Source of the DNA: Gluconobacter albidus
Lineage (GTDB): Bacteria; Pseudomonadota; Alphaproteobacteria; Acetobacterales; Acetobacteraceae
Direction of reading: 5' to 3'
DNA: 64,000 nucleotides
Assembly (NCBI RefSeq): GCF_002723915.1
Contig: NZ_BEWL01000002.1
Location: 372,001-436,000 of the forward strand
This document shows positions 19,006-26,717 of this stretch, piece after piece. The notes below the pieces were generated by a model. That model had not been told where the DNA came from, did not search any database, and was given only the letters and a program-made list of their open reading frames with translations. Positions within the stretch are counted from its first letter, which is position 1. Every line of letters begins with the position of its first letter. The translations under genes were made by a program, and so were the position numbers.

Positions 19006-20094
19006 GTGCCGGACCCCACGAATTCTTCCCCTGATCCTCTGAAAACCGATTTGCGTCGCGTCGATATCAATCCTGATTTCTGGTATCCGCTGGCGTGGTC
19101 GAAGGATCTCAAACGCGGGAAGACGATCGGGCGTCGGTTCGGACGTCATCCCATTGCGCTGGTACGGCCTTCGGAAGGCAGCGTGTTTGCGCTGGAAGAC
19201 CGGTGCGCGCACCGGCAGGTTCCGCTCAGTCTGGGCAAGGTCAGCGGTGAGGCTGTTCAGTGCTGTTATCACGGCTGGGCGTATGGCCGTTCGGGCCGCT
19301 GCATCGACGTGCCGTATCTGGGCAAGGGCAAGCTTCCGAACGGTGTGAGGACCTATCCCTGCCGTGAAGCGGGCGGCATGATTTTCATTTTTCCCGGTGA
19401 TGCGGCGAAAGCGGAAAGCGTTCCCCTGCCGGCACTGGCGCAGGTGGACAATCCGGCATTCAAGACGCGGCATTTCAGCCCTGTCGTGAAATGCCATTAC
19501 ACGTTCATGCATGAAAACCTGATGGACATGAACCATCAGTTCTTGCACCGCCGCCAGATGGGGCAGATCAAGGCGCGTTTTCTGGGGCAGGATGCGGGCG
19601 AGGGCTTCATTGAGGCGCGCTATAGTTTCGCACGCAGCGGCACCCAGCAGCCTCTGGCGGAGCGGCTGATTTTCGGCAAGCACCACGATGATCCGGGCCG
19701 GGAGCAGCCGGTTGAGGAAATCGTCAGTATCCGCACGACCTATCCGTATCAGAGCCTGAAAATCCATGACAAGGATGGCGACCTGATCATGGAGCTGTTC
19801 AGTGTTTATGTTCCGGACAGTGCAGATGGCATGAGCACGCAGACGTTTGGTCTGCTATCGGTGCTGCGCCCCAAAACGCCATTCCTGATTGATGTGATCT
19901 GGCCCGCGCTGGGCGTTTTCACGAACCGGATCTTTGAAGAAGACCGGGAGATCATGGAACTGGAGCAGAGTGCCTGGCGGGATCTGGGGGGGGATCACAA
20001 CGTCGAGGTTTTCCCCATCGTGCGAAAGCTGCGCGACCTTCTGAAGGTCAGTGGAATTGTGAGGGAACAGACGGCTGATCCTGTCGTTGTCTAG
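19006..20094 (+). CDS. Rieske non-heme iron oxygenase, terminal oxygenase component
   Basis: A 362-residue ring-hydroxylating or demethylating oxygenase subunit. The N-terminal Rieske [2Fe-2S] domain has C67-x-H69 and C86-x2-H89. The catalytic domain carries the mononuclear iron triad within HENLMDMNHQFLH: D174, H177 and H181. Layout and length resemble vanillate O-demethylase and related single-component oxygenases. The substrate is unknown. Such enzymes need a reductase partner, and none is encoded beside it. The start is GTG 19006 with a GAGAGGA site upstream. It is followed after 35 bp by an aldo/keto reductase gene. Confidence 0.85.
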   Translation: MPDPTNSSPDPLKTDLRRVDINPDFWYPLAWSKDLKRGKTIGRRFGRHPIALVRPSEGSVFALEDRCAHRQVPLSLGKVSGEAVQCCYHGWAYGRSGRCIDVPYLGKGKLPNGVRTYPCREAGGMIFIFPGDAAKAESVPLPALAQVDNPAFKTRHFSPVVKCHYTFMHENLMDMNHQFLHRRQMGQIKARFLGQDAGEGFIEARYSFARSGTQQPLAERLIFGKHHDDPGREQPVEEIVSIRTTYPYQSLKIHDKDGDLIMELFSVYVPDSADGMSTQTFGLLSVLRPKTPFLIDVIWPALGVFTNRIFEEDREIMELEQSAWRDLGGDHNVEVFPIVRKLRDLLKVSGIVREQTADPVVV

Positions 20095-21085: not shown

Positions 21086-22324
21086 GTGCCTGCCTGTGTG
21101 TTGGCGCTTCAGCCGGGGCGGTTCGGGCAGGCCGTAACCGTCTGTCTGGCGGCCCTGGCTGCAGTACTGGCGCTTTCGCCAGCTGTTCTGGCCGTTGCAT
21201 TGGGTGTGATTGCGGCGCAGGAGCGGGATGCCTGTCCGGCGGTGTGGAGCGTTCCGGTTCTGCTGCTGAGCGTGTTGTTCCCTGCCCAGACGCCTGTTCT
21301 GCTGGGGCTGCTGCCTGTTCTGTTCTGGCCTGCGCTTGTGCGTCGCAGGGACGGGGGCTGTTCTGCCGTTATGAGCATTCTGGGGGTGTCGCTGGTGTGG
21401 CATGCTTCAGACGTCGTGTCGGCCGAGCTGGTTGCGGGTCTGGGCCTGTGTATGCTCGGGTTGATCGGATGGTCCGTTCTGGGAGCGCATCGGGCTGGAA
21501 ATCTGGGGCTTTTGCGTCCCGTTCTGCTGATGGTTCTGGTGGTGGCGGCGCAGGGCGAGGGTCTGGCGGTCTGTGCCCGGATTGCGCTGGAAGCCACGCT
21601 TCTTGATCTTGTCACGCTGGCTCTGACGGCATCACTGGGGCTCCGGTTTCCGATGCTGGCCGTATTGCGCCTGCCGTTTCCGCCTCTGCCCGGACTGGTT
21701 GTGCTGTGGCTCGGAATTCATGCCGCGCTGGGCCTGGCCGCGGGTGTCGAGGGCTGGAGCGTGCTTGGCGTGGCGGTGGCGCTGCTTCTCGGCGTTCTGG
21801 CGCTGTCCGATCTGCTCGCCGTGGGACGGCAGATGTCTGCGGTGCAGGTGGCCGTATCCGGGGTTTCCGTGTTGCTGCTGGGGGCTGGAAGCCTGCTGCT
21901 GCCGGCTCTGGTGTTCGGGATGACAAGCCCTGCGTTGCACGTTGTGGGAGGAGAATGGGTCTGGCCCATCTGGAGTATCGGTGCGGGCGACGGCTCCCAT
22001 TTCCGGCTGATGGCCTTCGTGATGGTCGGAGCCGTAATCTGGATCGTTCTTGTGCGTCCTTGGCGGAGTATTGGCGGGATCGTTCAGGCGGCCTCCACAC
22101 TTGCTCCGGCGCTGGCAAGGCTGCTCTCGTCAGGCGATGCCCTGTTTGAAGAGGCGCCATCTCTGGGCTGGAGCCTGCGGCGCTTTATCGTGTCGGGGCG
22201 GGTTCGTTTCAGGGCGCTGAAAGGGATGAAAGCGCCCGTTTTGCACGATCTGCGACAGGGGGCGGTGGGCCTCTGGCTTGTTCTTCTCGGGCTCGTCCTC
22301 GCGGTTCTGGGAGTGATGACGTGA
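21086..22324 (+). CDS. HyfB-like membrane subunit of hydrogenase-4/Ehr-type complex, shortened
   Basis: A 412-residue, very hydrophobic protein that opens a six-gene overlapping operon. Its place in the operon and a PPLPGLVVLWL helix, resembling the PPLNGFISEW helix of HyfB/NuoL-type antiporter subunits, support the call. It is much shorter than E. coli HyfB (over 600 residues). I do not see the helix with the conserved KAGMMPLHSWLP lysine and histidine. The first usable start is GTG 21086, but the frame stays open upstream for about 80 bp without ATG, GTG or TTG, so the true N-terminus may be longer. It ends with a basic loop and one last helix. Confidence 0.6.
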   Translation: MPACVLALQPGRFGQAVTVCLAALAAVLALSPAVLAVALGVIAAQERDACPAVWSVPVLLLSVLFPAQTPVLLGLLPVLFWPALVRRRDGGCSAVMSILGVSLVWHASDVVSAELVAGLGLCMLGLIGWSVLGAHRAGNLGLLRPVLLMVLVVAAQGEGLAVCARIALEATLLDLVTLALTASLGLRFPMLAVLRLPFPPLPGLVVLWLGIHAALGLAAGVEGWSVLGVAVALLLGVLALSDLLAVGRQMSAVQVAVSGVSVLLLGAGSLLLPALVFGMTSPALHVVGGEWVWPIWSIGAGDGSHFRLMAFVMVGAVIWIVLVRPWRSIGGIVQAASTLAPALARLLSSGDALFEEAPSLGWSLRRFIVSGRVRFRALKGMKAPVLHDLRQGAVGLWLVLLGLVLAVLGVMT

Positions 22325-23193
22325 TGGCGCATGAAGCCGGACTGATCGCGCTGTCAGTGCTGGAAGCCCTGTTTCAGGTAGGGCTGCTGCTTGTTCTGGC
22401 ACCTGTGCTGGGATGGTGTCTGGACAGTCTGCCATTCTGGCTGGCTGGCCGGTCGGGGGGCGCGGTGCGGTTTCGCCTTTTTGGTGCAGGGCGTTTCTGG
22501 AAAGCCGTGCTTCGCAGCCCGTTGGGGGGGCGTTCTGCGCCCGCGCTGACCGTGGGGGTTCTGGCGCTCGTCTGTCTGCCTGCGGTGACTACGGGATCAG
22601 TCTTGTCCCCGTTTGCGGACCCGCTCGTCATGGGCCTGATGCTGTTGATGGGACGTGGATTTCTGGGGGCGGGCGTTCTGTCGGGAGAGGCGTCGCGGCT
22701 GGGGCCGGCGGTTCTGCTGCTCTGTCTGACGGAGGCTCTGATCGCGCTGGCTGCTCCGGGGACGGATGGCCTTGGGGGGCTGTGTGCGATGTTGCATATC
22801 GAGCCCGAACCCGGTCTGGAGGGAGCGCTTGCCGCCTGTGCGCTGGCTCTGGGGATTGCGTGTCCTCCGCTGCGTTCCGAGGACGTGACTGATATGCTGT
22901 CTGGACTGCAGGACCGGCAGGAGCGCGAGGCGGCGCGCTGCATCGCCGATGTGCTGAATTGTGCATGGCTGCTGCTGCTGGCTGATCTGGCATGGCCGGT
23001 GAGCGTGGGGCTCGCGCAGGGAGGCGTTCAGGGCTGGTGGCTCGGGCTGGTTGCGCTTGTCGCACGGCTGGCGCTGGCTGTGGGCGTGGCGGTCGGGTTG
23101 AGACTGATGGCGCAGGAGCGGAGCGCACGTTTGACGGCGCTGTTTGCGGGCGTGGCGCTTCTTCTGGCTCTGGCGGGGAGGTTTGGCACATGA
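22324..23193 (+). CDS. HyfC-like (NuoH-like) membrane subunit
   Basis: A 289-residue membrane protein matching the NuoH/HyfC position, which anchors the hydrophilic arm and forms the quinone or ion entry channel in complex I relatives. About seven hydrophobic segments are visible. The acidic cytoplasmic loop that reads IPFDVAEAEQELQEGP in E. coli HyfC is represented here by CPPLRSEDVTDMLSGLQDRQ, with fewer conserved acids. The ATG shares one base with the upstream stop (TGATG); a GTG at 22321 is an alternative. It overlaps the next gene as ATGA. Confidence 0.65.
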   Translation: MAHEAGLIALSVLEALFQVGLLLVLAPVLGWCLDSLPFWLAGRSGGAVRFRLFGAGRFWKAVLRSPLGGRSAPALTVGVLALVCLPAVTTGSVLSPFADPLVMGLMLLMGRGFLGAGVLSGEASRLGPAVLLLCLTEALIALAAPGTDGLGGLCAMLHIEPEPGLEGALAACALALGIACPPLRSEDVTDMLSGLQDRQEREAARCIADVLNCAWLLLLADLAWPVSVGLAQGGVQGWWLGLVALVARLALAVGVAVGLRLMAQERSARLTALFAGVALLLALAGRFGT

Positions 23194-23711
23194 TCGTTGG
23201 GTTCGGACTTCTCCTTCTGCTGGCTTTTGCGGGTCTGGGAAAAGACGGGCGGGGGCTGCCGCTTTACGGGGCAGTCTGCGCATTTGCCGGGGCGACGGTC
23301 TGCTCGGGACTGATGGCGCTGCTGACATCCGTGGCGCTGATCGGACTGAACGTCCTGGCGTGGATCTGGCTGAGGCGCTTTGCGCCGGAAGCGCCGGATC
23401 GGGCCGCTGTTCTGCCGGTTGTGGGCACGCTTGTCCTGCTTCTGGCGCTTGGTCTGTCAGGGGCGGGTCTGGGACTTGCTCCGGTTCTGGGTGCGGGCGC
23501 GGTTCTGGCAGGATTGTGTGGCGCGGCCTGGGGAACGCCGCTGGTTCAGTTCACGGGACTACTCCGCGCTGCGGACGGACTGGTTGTTGTCGCCTGCGTT
23601 CTGAATTCATGGCCGCTTTTTGCCGTTGCTCTGAGTCTGTGGGGTGTTCTGGCCGCACTGGGCATTACGCTGCTGCCGCGTCTGGCATGGCGGCGGGTGG
23701 AGGACGTCTGA
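23190..23711 (+). CDS. HyfE-like membrane subunit
   Basis: A 173-residue protein with about six transmembrane segments, equivalent in position and size to HyfE, the NuoK-like part of hydrogenase-4. It begins MIVGFGLLLLLAF. The ATG overlaps the upstream stop (ATGA) and its own stop overlaps the next start (TGATG), so all these genes are translationally coupled. Assignment rests on order, size and hydrophobic profile; I see no single diagnostic motif. Confidence 0.55.
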   Translation: MIVGFGLLLLLAFAGLGKDGRGLPLYGAVCAFAGATVCSGLMALLTSVALIGLNVLAWIWLRRFAPEAPDRAAVLPVVGTLVLLLALGLSGAGLGLAPVLGAGAVLAGLCGAAWGTPLVQFTGLLRAADGLVVVACVLNSWPLFAVALSLWGVLAALGITLLPRLAWRRVEDV

Positions 23712-24799
23712 TGCATCCGCTCGCACCCGTCGGTACGCTGTTTGCCGTTACCGTCTGGCCGCTTCTGGCAGCGTTTCTGCTGTGTCTGACGCCTGAAAAC
23801 CGGCAGTCCGCCAGCAGTCGGACATTTGCCGTGGCCGGACTTGTCATCACGCCGCTGGCCGTGTGGCTGATGCCGGGCACGGATGCGCTGGCCGCTGCGT
23901 GTTCCTGCATCGTGACGGCCATTCCGCTTCTTCTCCCGCAGGCCCGGGACCGGACCGGACGGATTTTGCCGTTTCTGGTGACGGGATGCGCGCTGCTGGC
24001 GCTGAATGTCCATTCGGCGTTCGCGGTGACGATCCTGTGTGGCGCGGGAACGGTTCTTCTGGCGTGGCGCGAGGGGCGTGGCCCCCGTCAGGCCGCGATT
24101 GTGTGGGACATCGCGCGCAGCCGGCTCGGGGGCGTGGTTCTGGGGCTTCTGGGCGCGTCGCTTCTGCCGATGCAGCAGTCGTCTCTGGGAGCGGTTCTGC
24201 TGACGGTCGGGCTGTGCATGGTGGCGGGTCTGGGACCGTCACCCGCGCCTGCTCCGGAGGCGGCGCTTCTGGATACGGGGCTGCGGTTTGCGGCACTGAT
24301 GCTGATGTTGCGCCTGAGTGCCTATCCGCTGGTCCATCTGCTCATGCTGGTTGCGGGCTTTGGAACCCTCCTCATGCTGGTGTTGTCACGTTCGACGGGA
24401 CGGACGATTTCCCTGCCGATACTGTCGGCGCTGGGTGCTGTTGCGGCCGCGACCGGCGAAGGTCCGGCGCTCGTCCTGCTGCTTCTGTCCGCGCTCGGAC
24501 TGGCCGTTCTGGATCTGCACGAGGCCGAGGAGGCGGAGGTCATCGGGGCAGGAGCCGCACCATGGCCGGTGTTCTGTGCGCTGGTCGGGATCGGGCGGTC
24601 GCTTGAAACCGCACAGCTTGTTCTGCTGGTGTTGTGTCTGCTGCCTGCTTTGTGGTCCGTACGTCCTATGACCCTGCTGCCAGCGTTCGGGCGGCCAGAA
24701 CGGGGGATTGTCGCAGTGATGCAGGCTGTGCTGCTGCTGGGCGGGCTGTGTGGTCCGCTATTGCTGGCGTGGCATCCGGTGACGGGGTGGCGGCCATGA
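23711..24799 (+). CDS. HyfF-like antiporter-type membrane subunit, degenerate
   Basis: A 362-residue polytopic membrane protein between the HyfE-like and HyfG-like genes, where HyfF (a NuoN/M-type antiporter module) belongs. E. coli HyfF is over 500 residues. The segment RLSAYPLVHLLMLVAGFGTLL, followed by SLPILSALGAVAAATGE, resembles the helices around the broken helix of antiporter modules. The conserved lysines and histidine expected in the ion path are not evident. Start and stop both overlap neighbours. A structural rather than pumping role is possible; that is inference. Confidence 0.55.
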   Translation: MHPLAPVGTLFAVTVWPLLAAFLLCLTPENRQSASSRTFAVAGLVITPLAVWLMPGTDALAAACSCIVTAIPLLLPQARDRTGRILPFLVTGCALLALNVHSAFAVTILCGAGTVLLAWREGRGPRQAAIVWDIARSRLGGVVLGLLGASLLPMQQSSLGAVLLTVGLCMVAGLGPSPAPAPEAALLDTGLRFAALMLMLRLSAYPLVHLLMLVAGFGTLLMLVLSRSTGRTISLPILSALGAVAAATGEGPALVLLLLSALGLAVLDLHEAEEAEVIGAGAAPWPVFCALVGIGRSLETAQLVLLVLCLLPALWSVRPMTLLPAFGRPERGIVAVMQAVLLLGGLCGPLLLAWHPVTGWRP

Positions 24800-26235
24800 A
24801 AAGCATGGGGCGGATCATCCGTAGTGGAGAGCGTGTGGCGCTGTCGCATTATCATCTCGATCCTGCGCAGTGGAGCGACATGCTCTGTGCTCCGGGCGCG
24901 ACGCTGCCACTGATCTCATGCTGGGCGAATGATTCCCGCGCCTATGTCCTGCTGCTGGAGGGGGACTGTCCGCTTCTGGCGAGCACGATTGTGGAAGAGC
25001 GCCGGTATCTGGCGCCTTCATCGCGGTTTGCCGGGGCGGAATGGGGGGAGCGCGTCTCGTATGATCTGTATGGCGTCGAGGCCATGGATGCGTGTGGCAA
25101 CGGAACGCCGGCGCTGGATGAAGGCGGATGGACGTCTACATGGCCGTTGTCGTCCCGGCCGGGACCGGCGTCGGGTGGTCTGCGTCCGCTCGCGGGGAGT
25201 CATTTTCTGCGTCCGGAGCAGACGGGGCTGAGTGGCCCTCTGGACCTGTCTTTCGAAGTTCTGAAAGGGAAAGTCCGGACTGTGGATGTCTGCGCGGGCG
25301 GGGCGCATCGGGGGGTGGTGTCCCGTCTTTTGGGGAAGACACCGGAAGAGGCCATGTTCCTCGTGGCGCGGATGACGGCGGGTGCGTTTGTGGCGTATCC
25401 TCTTGCCTTTGCGCGCGCTGTGGCGCAGGCGCGGGGGCAGGTTCCGGGGCCGGGAATTCGGGATGTGTGGATGATCCTGCTGGAGATCGAGCGGATGTCG
25501 CTCCATCTGTTTGACATGGCCCGGACGGCGCGGGGTGTGGATGCGGAGCTTCTGGCGACACATTGCGATCATGCGCGTGAAGCCATTGCGCAGGCCTGTT
25601 CGGAGCAGGGCGTGTCGCGTCGTCTGATGGATACGGTGAGTTGTGGTGGTTTTCGCGAGGGGCTGGAGATCGTCCCGCTGGCGCAGGCGGTTCATGCGGC
25701 GATGCAGCCACGTCTTGCGGCGCTGGAGGAGCTTCACCGGGTCTTTGCGTCCCGTCTGAACGGGTTTGCGGTTCTGGATGTGCGGCTGGCCGAGCGTTTT
25801 GCCGTTGGAGGCGTGACGGGGCGTGCGAGCGGCCGCAGCATGGATATGCGGCGGCGGGAAGCCGGAATGCGGCTGGAGGCACTGCGGGCGACGGGATCGA
25901 GCCGGGGCGATGCCCGGGCGCGTGACGGATTGCGGCTTGCGGAAATCAGAGATTCGCTGAAGCTGATGGAACGGATTCTGGGGAGCATCGGTCTGGAGGA
26001 TGACGAGCCCGCGCCGGATCGTACGGATGAGGGCATTGGCGTGGCCGAGGGGGCACGCGGAGATGTGTGGTACTGGGTACGGCTGAAAAACGGCCGGATC
26101 GAGAACCTGCATGTCCGCGATCCGGGTGTATCGGTTCTACCGGTTCTGGGGGCGATGCTGCGGGGTTGTCCCATCGAGCGGGTACCCGCAGCTCTGGGCT
26201 CGATCGGACTCTCTCCAGCGGGGATCGCGTTGTGA
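24796..26235 (+). CDS. HyfG-like large subunit lacking the NiFe cysteine motifs
   Basis: A 479-residue fusion of a NuoC-like domain (residues 1-125, with FAGAEWGERVSYDLYGVEAM) and a NuoD/NiFe large-subunit domain (residues 130-479, with GAHRGVVSRLLG and LEIERMSLHLFDMA), as in HyfG/HycE. Catalytic subunits have ERICGIC and DPCxxC. Here the first reads ARMTAGA (residues 191-197), with both cysteines replaced. The second reads MLRGCPIERV near residue 458, with one cysteine at most. It therefore should not hold a NiFe centre and is closer to the Ehr (energy-converting-hydrogenase-related) group. It overlaps both neighbours by four bases. Confidence 0.8.
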   Translation: MKSMGRIIRSGERVALSHYHLDPAQWSDMLCAPGATLPLISCWANDSRAYVLLLEGDCPLLASTIVEERRYLAPSSRFAGAEWGERVSYDLYGVEAMDACGNGTPALDEGGWTSTWPLSSRPGPASGGLRPLAGSHFLRPEQTGLSGPLDLSFEVLKGKVRTVDVCAGGAHRGVVSRLLGKTPEEAMFLVARMTAGAFVAYPLAFARAVAQARGQVPGPGIRDVWMILLEIERMSLHLFDMARTARGVDAELLATHCDHAREAIAQACSEQGVSRRLMDTVSCGGFREGLEIVPLAQAVHAAMQPRLAALEELHRVFASRLNGFAVLDVRLAERFAVGGVTGRASGRSMDMRRREAGMRLEALRATGSSRGDARARDGLRLAEIRDSLKLMERILGSIGLEDDEPAPDRTDEGIGVAEGARGDVWYWVRLKNGRIENLHVRDPGVSVLPVLGAMLRGCPIERVPAALGSIGLSPAGIAL

Positions 26236-26717
26236 ACGCTCTGCGACGGACGGGCCCTCTGAGCCTGCTTTACGCCTTCATGGATGCGCGGCGCTGGCGT
26301 CCCTCCACAGAGGGGGTGTCTGTGGGGCGTGAGCGTCCGATCGGGTTGTATGTGCTGGAGACGGGGGGATGCGAGGGCTGCTTCATGGAGATCGAGTCCC
26401 TGAAAGGCAGTGCTTTCGCTCTGGAGCAGGCGGGTTTTGTTTGTGTGAGCGATCCGGCGGATGCGGACTGGCTGCTGCTGACTGGCGCGGTGACGCGCGT
26501 CTGTGCCGAGATGGTGGACCGGGTGTGGCGGGCAATGCCACCGGGCCGAAGCCTGATTGCGGTGGGGGCCTGTGCGGTCGATGGAGGGCCGTTTCCGGCC
26601 AGTTATGCGACGCTGGGCGGCTTGCAGGCCCTGACGCCGGTGCGGCGTGCGATTCCGGGCTGTCCTCCCGCGCCGCAGGAGATCCTGCAGGCCCTTCAGG
26701 AGCTGGCGCGGGTCTGA
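26232..26717 (+). CDS. HyfI-like (NuoB-like) [4Fe-4S] small subunit
   Basis: A 161-residue small subunit of the complex-I/hydrogenase-4 family that holds the cluster next to the large subunit. All four cluster ligands appear intact: C47 and C50 (GGCEGCFMEIE), C114 (VGACAVDGG) and C144 (PGCPPAPQE). The GTG start overlaps the HyfG-like stop (GTGA). It is the last gene of the operon. No HyfA- or HyfH-type ferredoxin subunit with two 4Fe-4S motifs is present, so this is the only iron-sulfur cluster encoded in the locus. Confidence 0.85.
   Translation: MNALRRTGPLSLLYAFMDARRWRPSTEGVSVGRERPIGLYVLETGGCEGCFMEIESLKGSAFALEQAGFVCVSDPADADWLLLTGAVTRVCAEMVDRVWRAMPPGRSLIAVGACAVDGGPFPASYATLGGLQALTPVRRAIPGCPPAPQEILQALQELARV

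Follow-up and report, generated by a model that had tools for sequence, protein, structure and literature searches.

An Ehr-type membrane complex of Gluconobacter albidus lacking the canonical ion-pump residues

What is left to do for an energy-converting membrane machine whose catalytic metal site and canonical ion-translocating residues are both gone? This question is raised by an operon of six genes at positions 21086–26717 of a 64,000-nucleotide stretch of the Gluconobacter albidus genome (contig NZ_BEWL01000002.1, positions 372,001 to 436,000 of the forward strand; the whole stretch is called the window hereafter). Judged by its descent, the encoded complex is of a known kind, an Ehr (energy-converting hydrogenase-related) complex, with which Marreiros et al. 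2013 reportedly deals. According to the accessible parts of the published work, Ehr complexes are without NiFe ligands and their function is unsettled (PMC6349859, PMC10284858, PMC7894505), and they are suspected of charge translocation owing to their antiporter-like subunits (PMC6349859). The operon analyzed here belongs to an Ehr variant in which the pump residues were lost once and the redox module was kept. We found no earlier description of it: the titles and abstract openings of the papers listed in our literature searches contained no report of an Ehr complex without pump residues, and the available part of PMC12361115 does not mention Ehr. A first-pass annotation, made from the sequence alone, overlooked both the loss of the ion-translocation residues and the membrane subunits' lack of a Pfam match. 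Taken together, the Ehr identity and the loss of the canonical pump residues are very probable on the evidence given below.

Loss of the antiporter residues

The operon consists of six co-directional, intact open frames on the plus strand, and each start overlaps the preceding stop by 1–4 bases. The gene order B-C-E-F-G-I recurs through the operons of the family, so that the arrangement described in the first-pass annotation is borne out. For comparison, a set of 95 operons was assembled (the window and 94 further loci; loci and genomes carry L and G numbers below), and an operon was called pump-intact if its B or F subunit carries Glu and Lys at the columns of transmembrane segments (TM) 5 and 7. 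By this automatic rule 29 operons are pump-intact, 63 are pump-lost (the window, 15 named Gluconobacter loci and 47 others) and three are unclassified (L085, L154, L168); seven of the 63 pump-lost operons are without an aligned F and one is without an aligned B.

The residues in question have canonical pump roles in E. coli complex I, and their identities (E144, K229, H338, K234 and the others used here) were confirmed in the E. coli sequence. The window's subunit B (21086..22324; 412 amino acids from GTG) and subunit F (23711..24799; 362 amino acids from ATG 23711) carry none of the TM5 Glu, the TM7 Lys or the TM12 Lys/Glu. Furthermore, there is no buried lysine in B, whose start codon is uncertain because an ATG is missing and a longer N-terminus is possible, and not a single lysine in the whole F protein. 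The B columns of NuoL E144, K229 and H338 read E, K and H in all 27 aligned pump-intact operons, whereas among the 62 aligned pump-lost B proteins no Lys was found at K229, no Glu at E144 and neither Glu nor Lys at K399; His at H338 occurs once (L065). At the F column of NuoM K234 a lysine stands in 26/28 pump-intact and 0/56 pump-lost operons. Both pump-intact exceptions are wrongly chosen frames, with the motif present in another frame of the same locus. Among the pump-lost F proteins Glu at E144 was observed in 1/56 (L140), and an acidic residue at E407 in one (L084).

Buried residues were also counted without an alignment, whereby length filters dropped some of the rows. No buried lysine is present in 40/60 (B), 46/56 (F), 50/63 (C) and 51/56 (E) of the pump-lost proteins, versus 0/24, 6/28, 3/27 and 5/29, respectively, of the pump-intact ones. 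The window's subunit C (22324..23193 from ATG 22324, or from GTG 22321) is devoid of the acidic residues that the pump-intact clade conserves, and subunit E (23190..23711; 173 amino acids) has no buried charged residue at all. Many acidic columns of C are conserved to at least 90% in the pump-intact clade and none in the pump-lost clade, whose rows are more divergent. Counting all charged columns at this threshold, there are 10–29 per subunit in the pump-intact clade and none in B, C, E and F of the whole pump-lost clade, the lower count being due in part to the more divergent rows. The proteins are still predicted to span the membrane many times, with pump-lost medians of 14 (B), 13 (F), 8 (C) and 6 (E) segments. 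Measured informally against the charge translocation suspected for Ehr, the ion-translocation residues are absent from the window's antiporter-like subunits, and from these residues we consider it likely that the complex does not pump ions.

In the large-subunit trees a single change accounts for the loss of the pump residues, and it falls within the pump-intact rows. The pump-lost clade is supported by a Shimodaira–Hasegawa-like approximate likelihood ratio test (SH-aLRT) value of 99 in the tree of 86 rows and by 100/98 in the tree of 55 rows, both of which leave out near-identical Gluconobacter rows. The single change was recovered in 200/200 bootstrap trees of the 55 rows, with L154 set as 'lost' by hand. 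This early-branching locus is the sister of the remaining pump-lost rows (94/83). Its F protein matches the pump-intact profile with E 7.2e-102 and keeps the TM5 Glu, and the TM7 Lys and the TM12 Glu are both replaced by Leu; its B gene lies off the contig end, so that the assignment refers to F only. This transitional F suggests that TM7 Lys and TM12 Glu went first, ahead of the remaining decay. The same genome (G151) holds a second copy, L176, with TM7 Lys motifs in B and F. Gene order and redox module are common to pump-intact and pump-lost relatives, one genome having both copies, which amounts to a natural experiment on the coupling of redox chemistry to ion pumping in complex-I-like machines.

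The first-pass annotation had argued that the operon is under selection. Ratios of nonsynonymous to synonymous substitution rates (dN/dS) were determined after Nei-Gojobori between the window and nine same-genus relatives, a method that is rough at high dS; pairs with saturated dS were omitted. We obtained 0.14–0.37 for B, 0.12–0.35 for C, 0.04–0.19 for E, 0.09–0.19 for F, 0.07–0.24 for G and 0.09–0.23 for I, compared with 0.07–0.17 for the flanking pepA, and other pump-intact and pump-lost pairs fall in a similar range. Neither values near 1 nor frameshifts were found. These ratios show purifying selection on each of the six genes, and a pseudogene or a decaying operon is ruled out by the overall range of 0.04–0.37 and the open frames.

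Profile searches outlined how far the complex extends. Of 289 genomes drawn from across the class, the pump-lost F profile matched two, each belonging to the family; two further listed members of the family gave no match, so that its reach is limited. The small-subunit profile matched 196/200 family genomes. By hand count the best E was no higher than 1e-31 in 169 of these 196, which we took as the sign of an Ehr-type complex, and the other 27 (E ~1e-22 to 1e-30) are presumably NuoB. Large-subunit matches were obtained in 273/299 genomes, NuoD-like matches included. The window's own genome (G000, 3.29 Mb) contains a single PF00346 place, namely the operon at 21086–26717; among named organisms, Gluconobacter kondonii has the closest large subunit (95% identity), with G. 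cerevisiae level with it.

Descent of the membrane subunits and state of the redox module

By descent, B is HyfB/EhrA/NuoL-like, C HyfC/NuoH-like, E HyfE-like and F HyfF/NuoM-like. The four window proteins gave no Pfam match at E≤1 and nothing in NCBIfam beyond a single match of E=0.94; only G and I lie above the Pfam cut-offs. Consequently, the Hyf-like names given to B, C, E and F in the first-pass annotation are unreadable from the window sequence alone, and they stand via intermediate relatives. We compared profiles of a window-type set (24 rows, 23 for F), of intermediates and of pump-intact relatives. Window-type profiles match the intermediates with E values of 1.4e-18 for B, 1.5e-26 for C, 2.1e-23 for E and 7.2e-30 for F, and the intermediates match the pump-intact profiles with 6.6e-47, 6.6e-44, 1.3e-9 and 8.8e-16, respectively, the best pump-intact match always being the own subunit. 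Compared directly with the pump-intact profiles, the window-type set gives a strong match for C only (7.5e-12); that of B is partial (1.8e-4, covering 67 columns), and those of E (0.03) and F (0.065) fall short of significance. Against the NCBI hydrogenase-4 models the pump-intact locus L082 reaches 3.2e-167 for B and 2.6e-170 for F; the F match clears the cut-off of its model, the B match does not. On this profile evidence the names HyfB, C, E and F hold by descent and gene order, because the chain through the intermediates links each protein to its own subunit. The antiporter-like and NuoH-like membrane subunits expected of an Ehr complex are hence present, recognizable by profile chain and gene order only.

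The large subunit G (24796..26235; 479 amino acids, HyfG/NuoCD/EhrL-like) matches PF00346 with E 7.7e-14. Its ARMTAGA (residues 191–197; 25366..25386), standing where the first NiFe CxxC motif would be, aligns with RVCGIC of E. coli HyfG, as the first-pass annotation had stated; R192 is the Arg of the motif, and the two Cys columns hold Thr and Ala. The second replacement proposed there, LRGCP in place of DPCxxC, is a misalignment and was rejected: LRGCP aligns with LRGNT of HyfG, and its Cys is confined to the window, L032, L033 and L034 among 56 aligned operons. The true equivalent of DPCYSC is LSPAGI (residues 472–477; 26209..26226). The window protein ends two residues later, without the C-terminal tail of HyfG, which has 35 residues past this motif. 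None of the four NiFe cysteines is present in 94/95 operons, the window included, and a CxxC anywhere in the large subunit occurs in 1/92 classified operons (L043). HypD, required for NiFe maturation, gave no match in the window genome and is matched in 18/120 family genomes. The Ehr-type complex without a NiFe site, as first described, is supported by the cysteines and by HypD alike, and an active hydrogenase is ruled out on the same two grounds. As a separate observation, L080 carries a lone Cys at the second NiFe position, the only such operon of the 95. What has been retained in the large subunit are charged residues common to HyfG and NuoD: H171 of the HRG motif (25306..25308), R192 and E230 are invariant in 92/92 classified operons, at R233 an Arg stands in 89/92 and a Lys in the other three, and 88 have His at H237.

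The small subunit I (26232..26717; 161 amino acids from GTG, HyfI/NuoB/EhrS-like) matches PF01058 with E 2.4e-24. All four cysteines of the 4Fe-4S cluster are in place (C47, C50, C114 and C144, with codons starting at 26370, 26379, 26571 and 26661), in keeping with the first-pass annotation, and they are complete in 85/87 small subunits and in 53/55 of the pump-lost class. The further claim of a single cluster site without a ferredoxin subunit was supported as well, since no CxxCxxCxxxC motif was found in stop-to-stop frames of at least 50 codons in the 64-kb window. Describing the complex as minimal does not set this locus apart, as its six-gene order is shared throughout the family; the ferredoxin search covered the window only. 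With its profile a small subunit was detected in each of 17 genomes, among them those of six loci (L058, L060, L061, L062, L064 and L076) whose gene lies outside the 16-kb stretch, elsewhere in the genome. At L168 (G011) large- and small-subunit genes were observed, and B, C, E and F were not found within its 10-kb stretch.

Set beside known systems, the window complex resembles Ehr (e.g. Geobacter sulfurreducens GSU0739-45) in that its large and small subunits are group-4-hydrogenase-like and have no NiFe ligands, and in its HyfE- and NuoL-like membrane subunits, but it lacks the canonical antiporter residues; Geobacter Ehr was compared by description only. Its B, C, E, F, G and I correspond to those of E. 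coli hydrogenase-4 (Hyf) in both order and descent, whereas the operon has no genes for HyfA, D, H and J, and the NiFe cysteines, the pump residues and the large-subunit tail are missing. Neither the two CxxC motifs nor the HypD expected of a group 4 [NiFe] hydrogenase was found. The NuoB/NuoCD-like module, the HRG motif and the ExxRxxxH residues of NuoD are features of complex I (Nuo); in contrast to the latter, the operon has no NADH-module gene, no NuoD quinone Tyr and no antiporter Lys/Glu. As to signs of a complex I, the genome has the single PF00346 place and the window no ferredoxin motif, a statement made without a genome-wide search for NuoE, F, G and I. Published Gluconobacter experiments were consulted, too. 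Transposon knockout collections exist for the genus, according to the available part of PMC8602642. The main texts on the G. oxydans B58 transposon screens mention no hydrogenase, hyf, NADH or complex I (PMC8602642, PMC12041372), and the main text on the G. oxydans 621H RNA-seq mentions no hydrogenase, formate hydrogenlyase or complex I (PMC5756330).

Possible roles of the complex

Because NiFe site and pump residues are lost and selection nevertheless keeps the complex, it probably does another job than making hydrogen or pumping. The best reading, to which we assign a probability of roughly 0.45, is that of an Ehr-derived, non-pumping, membrane-anchored single-electron module with one [4Fe-4S] cluster. 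The pump residues would have been lost once in an ancestor, with the hydrogenase chemistry gone too, and the four membrane proteins would serve as an anchor. The G-I module would then pass single electrons from a putative soluble donor to a membrane acceptor without storing energy, the acceptor probably being ubiquinone at a site unlike that of NuoD. Electron transfer through the single cluster as the actual function is, taken by itself, a tentative proposal.

Several observations weigh against this reading. The NuoD-type quinone Tyr occurs in 0/92 classified operons, so that nothing in the sequences speaks positively for a quinone site; the first quinone His (GPxH) is present in 29/29 pump-intact and 4/63 pump-lost operons, the second in 0/29 and 5/63, and the window has neither the His pair nor the Tyr. 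The exchange of electrons with quinone suggested in the first-pass annotation is possible, probably at a site unlike that of NuoD. An electron donor is not encoded in the operon, and the AlphaFold models of F and B (14 Gluconobacter rows) are unusable, with mean predicted local distance difference test (pLDDT) scores of 45.6 and 45.7. Furthermore, a new ion path is conceivable. The mean number of buried Asp/Glu in pump-lost versus pump-intact proteins is 3.7 vs 2.7 in B, 3.1 vs 3.4 in F and 2.7 vs 3.2 in C (E, 0.45 vs 1.45), and D328 of B as well as R184 and D207 of C are retained in the 24-row window set (trimmed-row numbering). Total lysine is also lower in the pump-lost F (2.6 vs 5.4) and C (2.0 vs 5.2) and equal between the clades in B (5.5) and E (1.2); a mere composition effect behind the lysine loss is only partly excluded by these sequences. 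Finally, only one of the four cluster cysteines is left in L158 and L167, with the operon still open and a dN/dS of 0.12–0.38 for B, C, G and I. The cluster is therefore not needed everywhere, and this complex possibly contains no cofactor at all.

The fate of L158 and L167 also fits a structural relic, that is, subunits that stabilize another membrane protein or the membrane without any redox turnover. Relative to the large subunit, the membrane subunits have a lower mean identity in the pump-lost clade (B 0.27 with G 0.45) than in the pump-intact one (0.55 with 0.62), which is in line with such a role, and there is a precedent in the same family: according to the available part of PMC10715153, both a deranged bc1 complex and a COX1-like protein are retained in Acetobacteraceae with their cofactor ligands missing, and a scaffold role is proposed for bc1. 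By analogy this bc1 is the closest precedent, a respiratory complex kept after the loss of key ligands; it is a different complex, and the lone hydrogenase mentioned in that part of the source is a type 1 hydrogenase. The present operon would be a second kind of retained-but-degenerate respiratory enzyme in Acetobacteraceae. A pure scaffold leaves unexplained, however, why four cluster cysteines persist in 53/55 pump-lost small subunits and why the charged residues of the large subunit are invariant. Stabilization of complex I is excluded in the window genome because no other PF00346 protein is present there. We regard the relic as rather unlikely.

Less probable still is a sensor of redox or NAD (nicotinamide adenine dinucleotide) status, whose cluster would signal the redox state or O2 to a partner, the small subunit being co-expressed with NAD synthesis genes. 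The small-subunit gene stands directly 5' of co-directional nrtR-nadA-nadB-nadC in 8/11 small-subunit stretches (L102–L104, L106–L108, L173 and L174), from four genera (g23, g85, g9 and g47); the families were checked in L102, L103 and L106 and assigned by similarity in the remaining loci. Among the exceptions, no nad gene was found in the stretch of L172, L175 has nadCBA on the opposite strand ~2.4 kb away with no nrtR found, and at L105 the adjoining nrtR-nadABC is missing, the neighbors presumably being rplU, rpmA and obg. In L059 and L065 nrtR lies directly 3' of the small-subunit gene, beside the B-G genes, and nad genes are found downstream, on the opposite strand, in L052, L053, L056, L057 and L066. 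By hand count small subunit and NrtR are less than 10 kb apart in at least 13 genomes (G149, G192, G085, G008, G022, G079, G025, G046, G101, G061, G136, G158 and G032) and apart in many others. Against a sensor stands that the synteny is clade-limited and could be an inherited neighborhood: there is no nad gene in the window and no NrtR match in its genome. The gene order is consequently a lead towards NAD metabolism, not proof. A broader proposal, a redox device or sensor with one cluster, linked to the supply of NAD, that would form a new functional class in the complex-I superfamily, we consider doubtful; it would have dropped its catalytic metal site and its pump, the latter in one ancestor, and at least one descendant lineage would have lost the cluster ligands afterwards.

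A re-routed pump or channel, moving ions via different residues, appears about as improbable as the sensor. The many membrane segments kept, the undiminished buried Asp/Glu of B and the few charged positions conserved in the window-type set would suit it, but no charged column reaches 90% in the (more divergent) pump-lost B, C, E and F, and the window's E is without buried charge. The redox-linked ion channel considered in the first-pass annotation is likewise weakened, the canonical Lys, Glu and His being gone from B and F and a clade-wide acidic column from C. A misread working [NiFe] hydrogenase or complex I, for which overall homology speaks, is highly improbable in view of 0/4 NiFe cysteines in 94/95 operons, no HypD and no ferredoxin motif in the window.

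Neighboring genes

In L055 and L057 a frame of ~958 codons lies between the G and I genes. Its product was considered as a partner and dropped, as the L055 sequence is one that we take to be a TonB-dependent receptor. Two genes upstream of the window operon, the frame at 19006–20094 presumably encodes a Rieske-type oxygenase. Between this frame and the operon lies an aldo/keto reductase gene (PF00248; 20130–20972), and a frame similar to it was observed in 23 loci, the window and the named Gluconobacter loci not counted.

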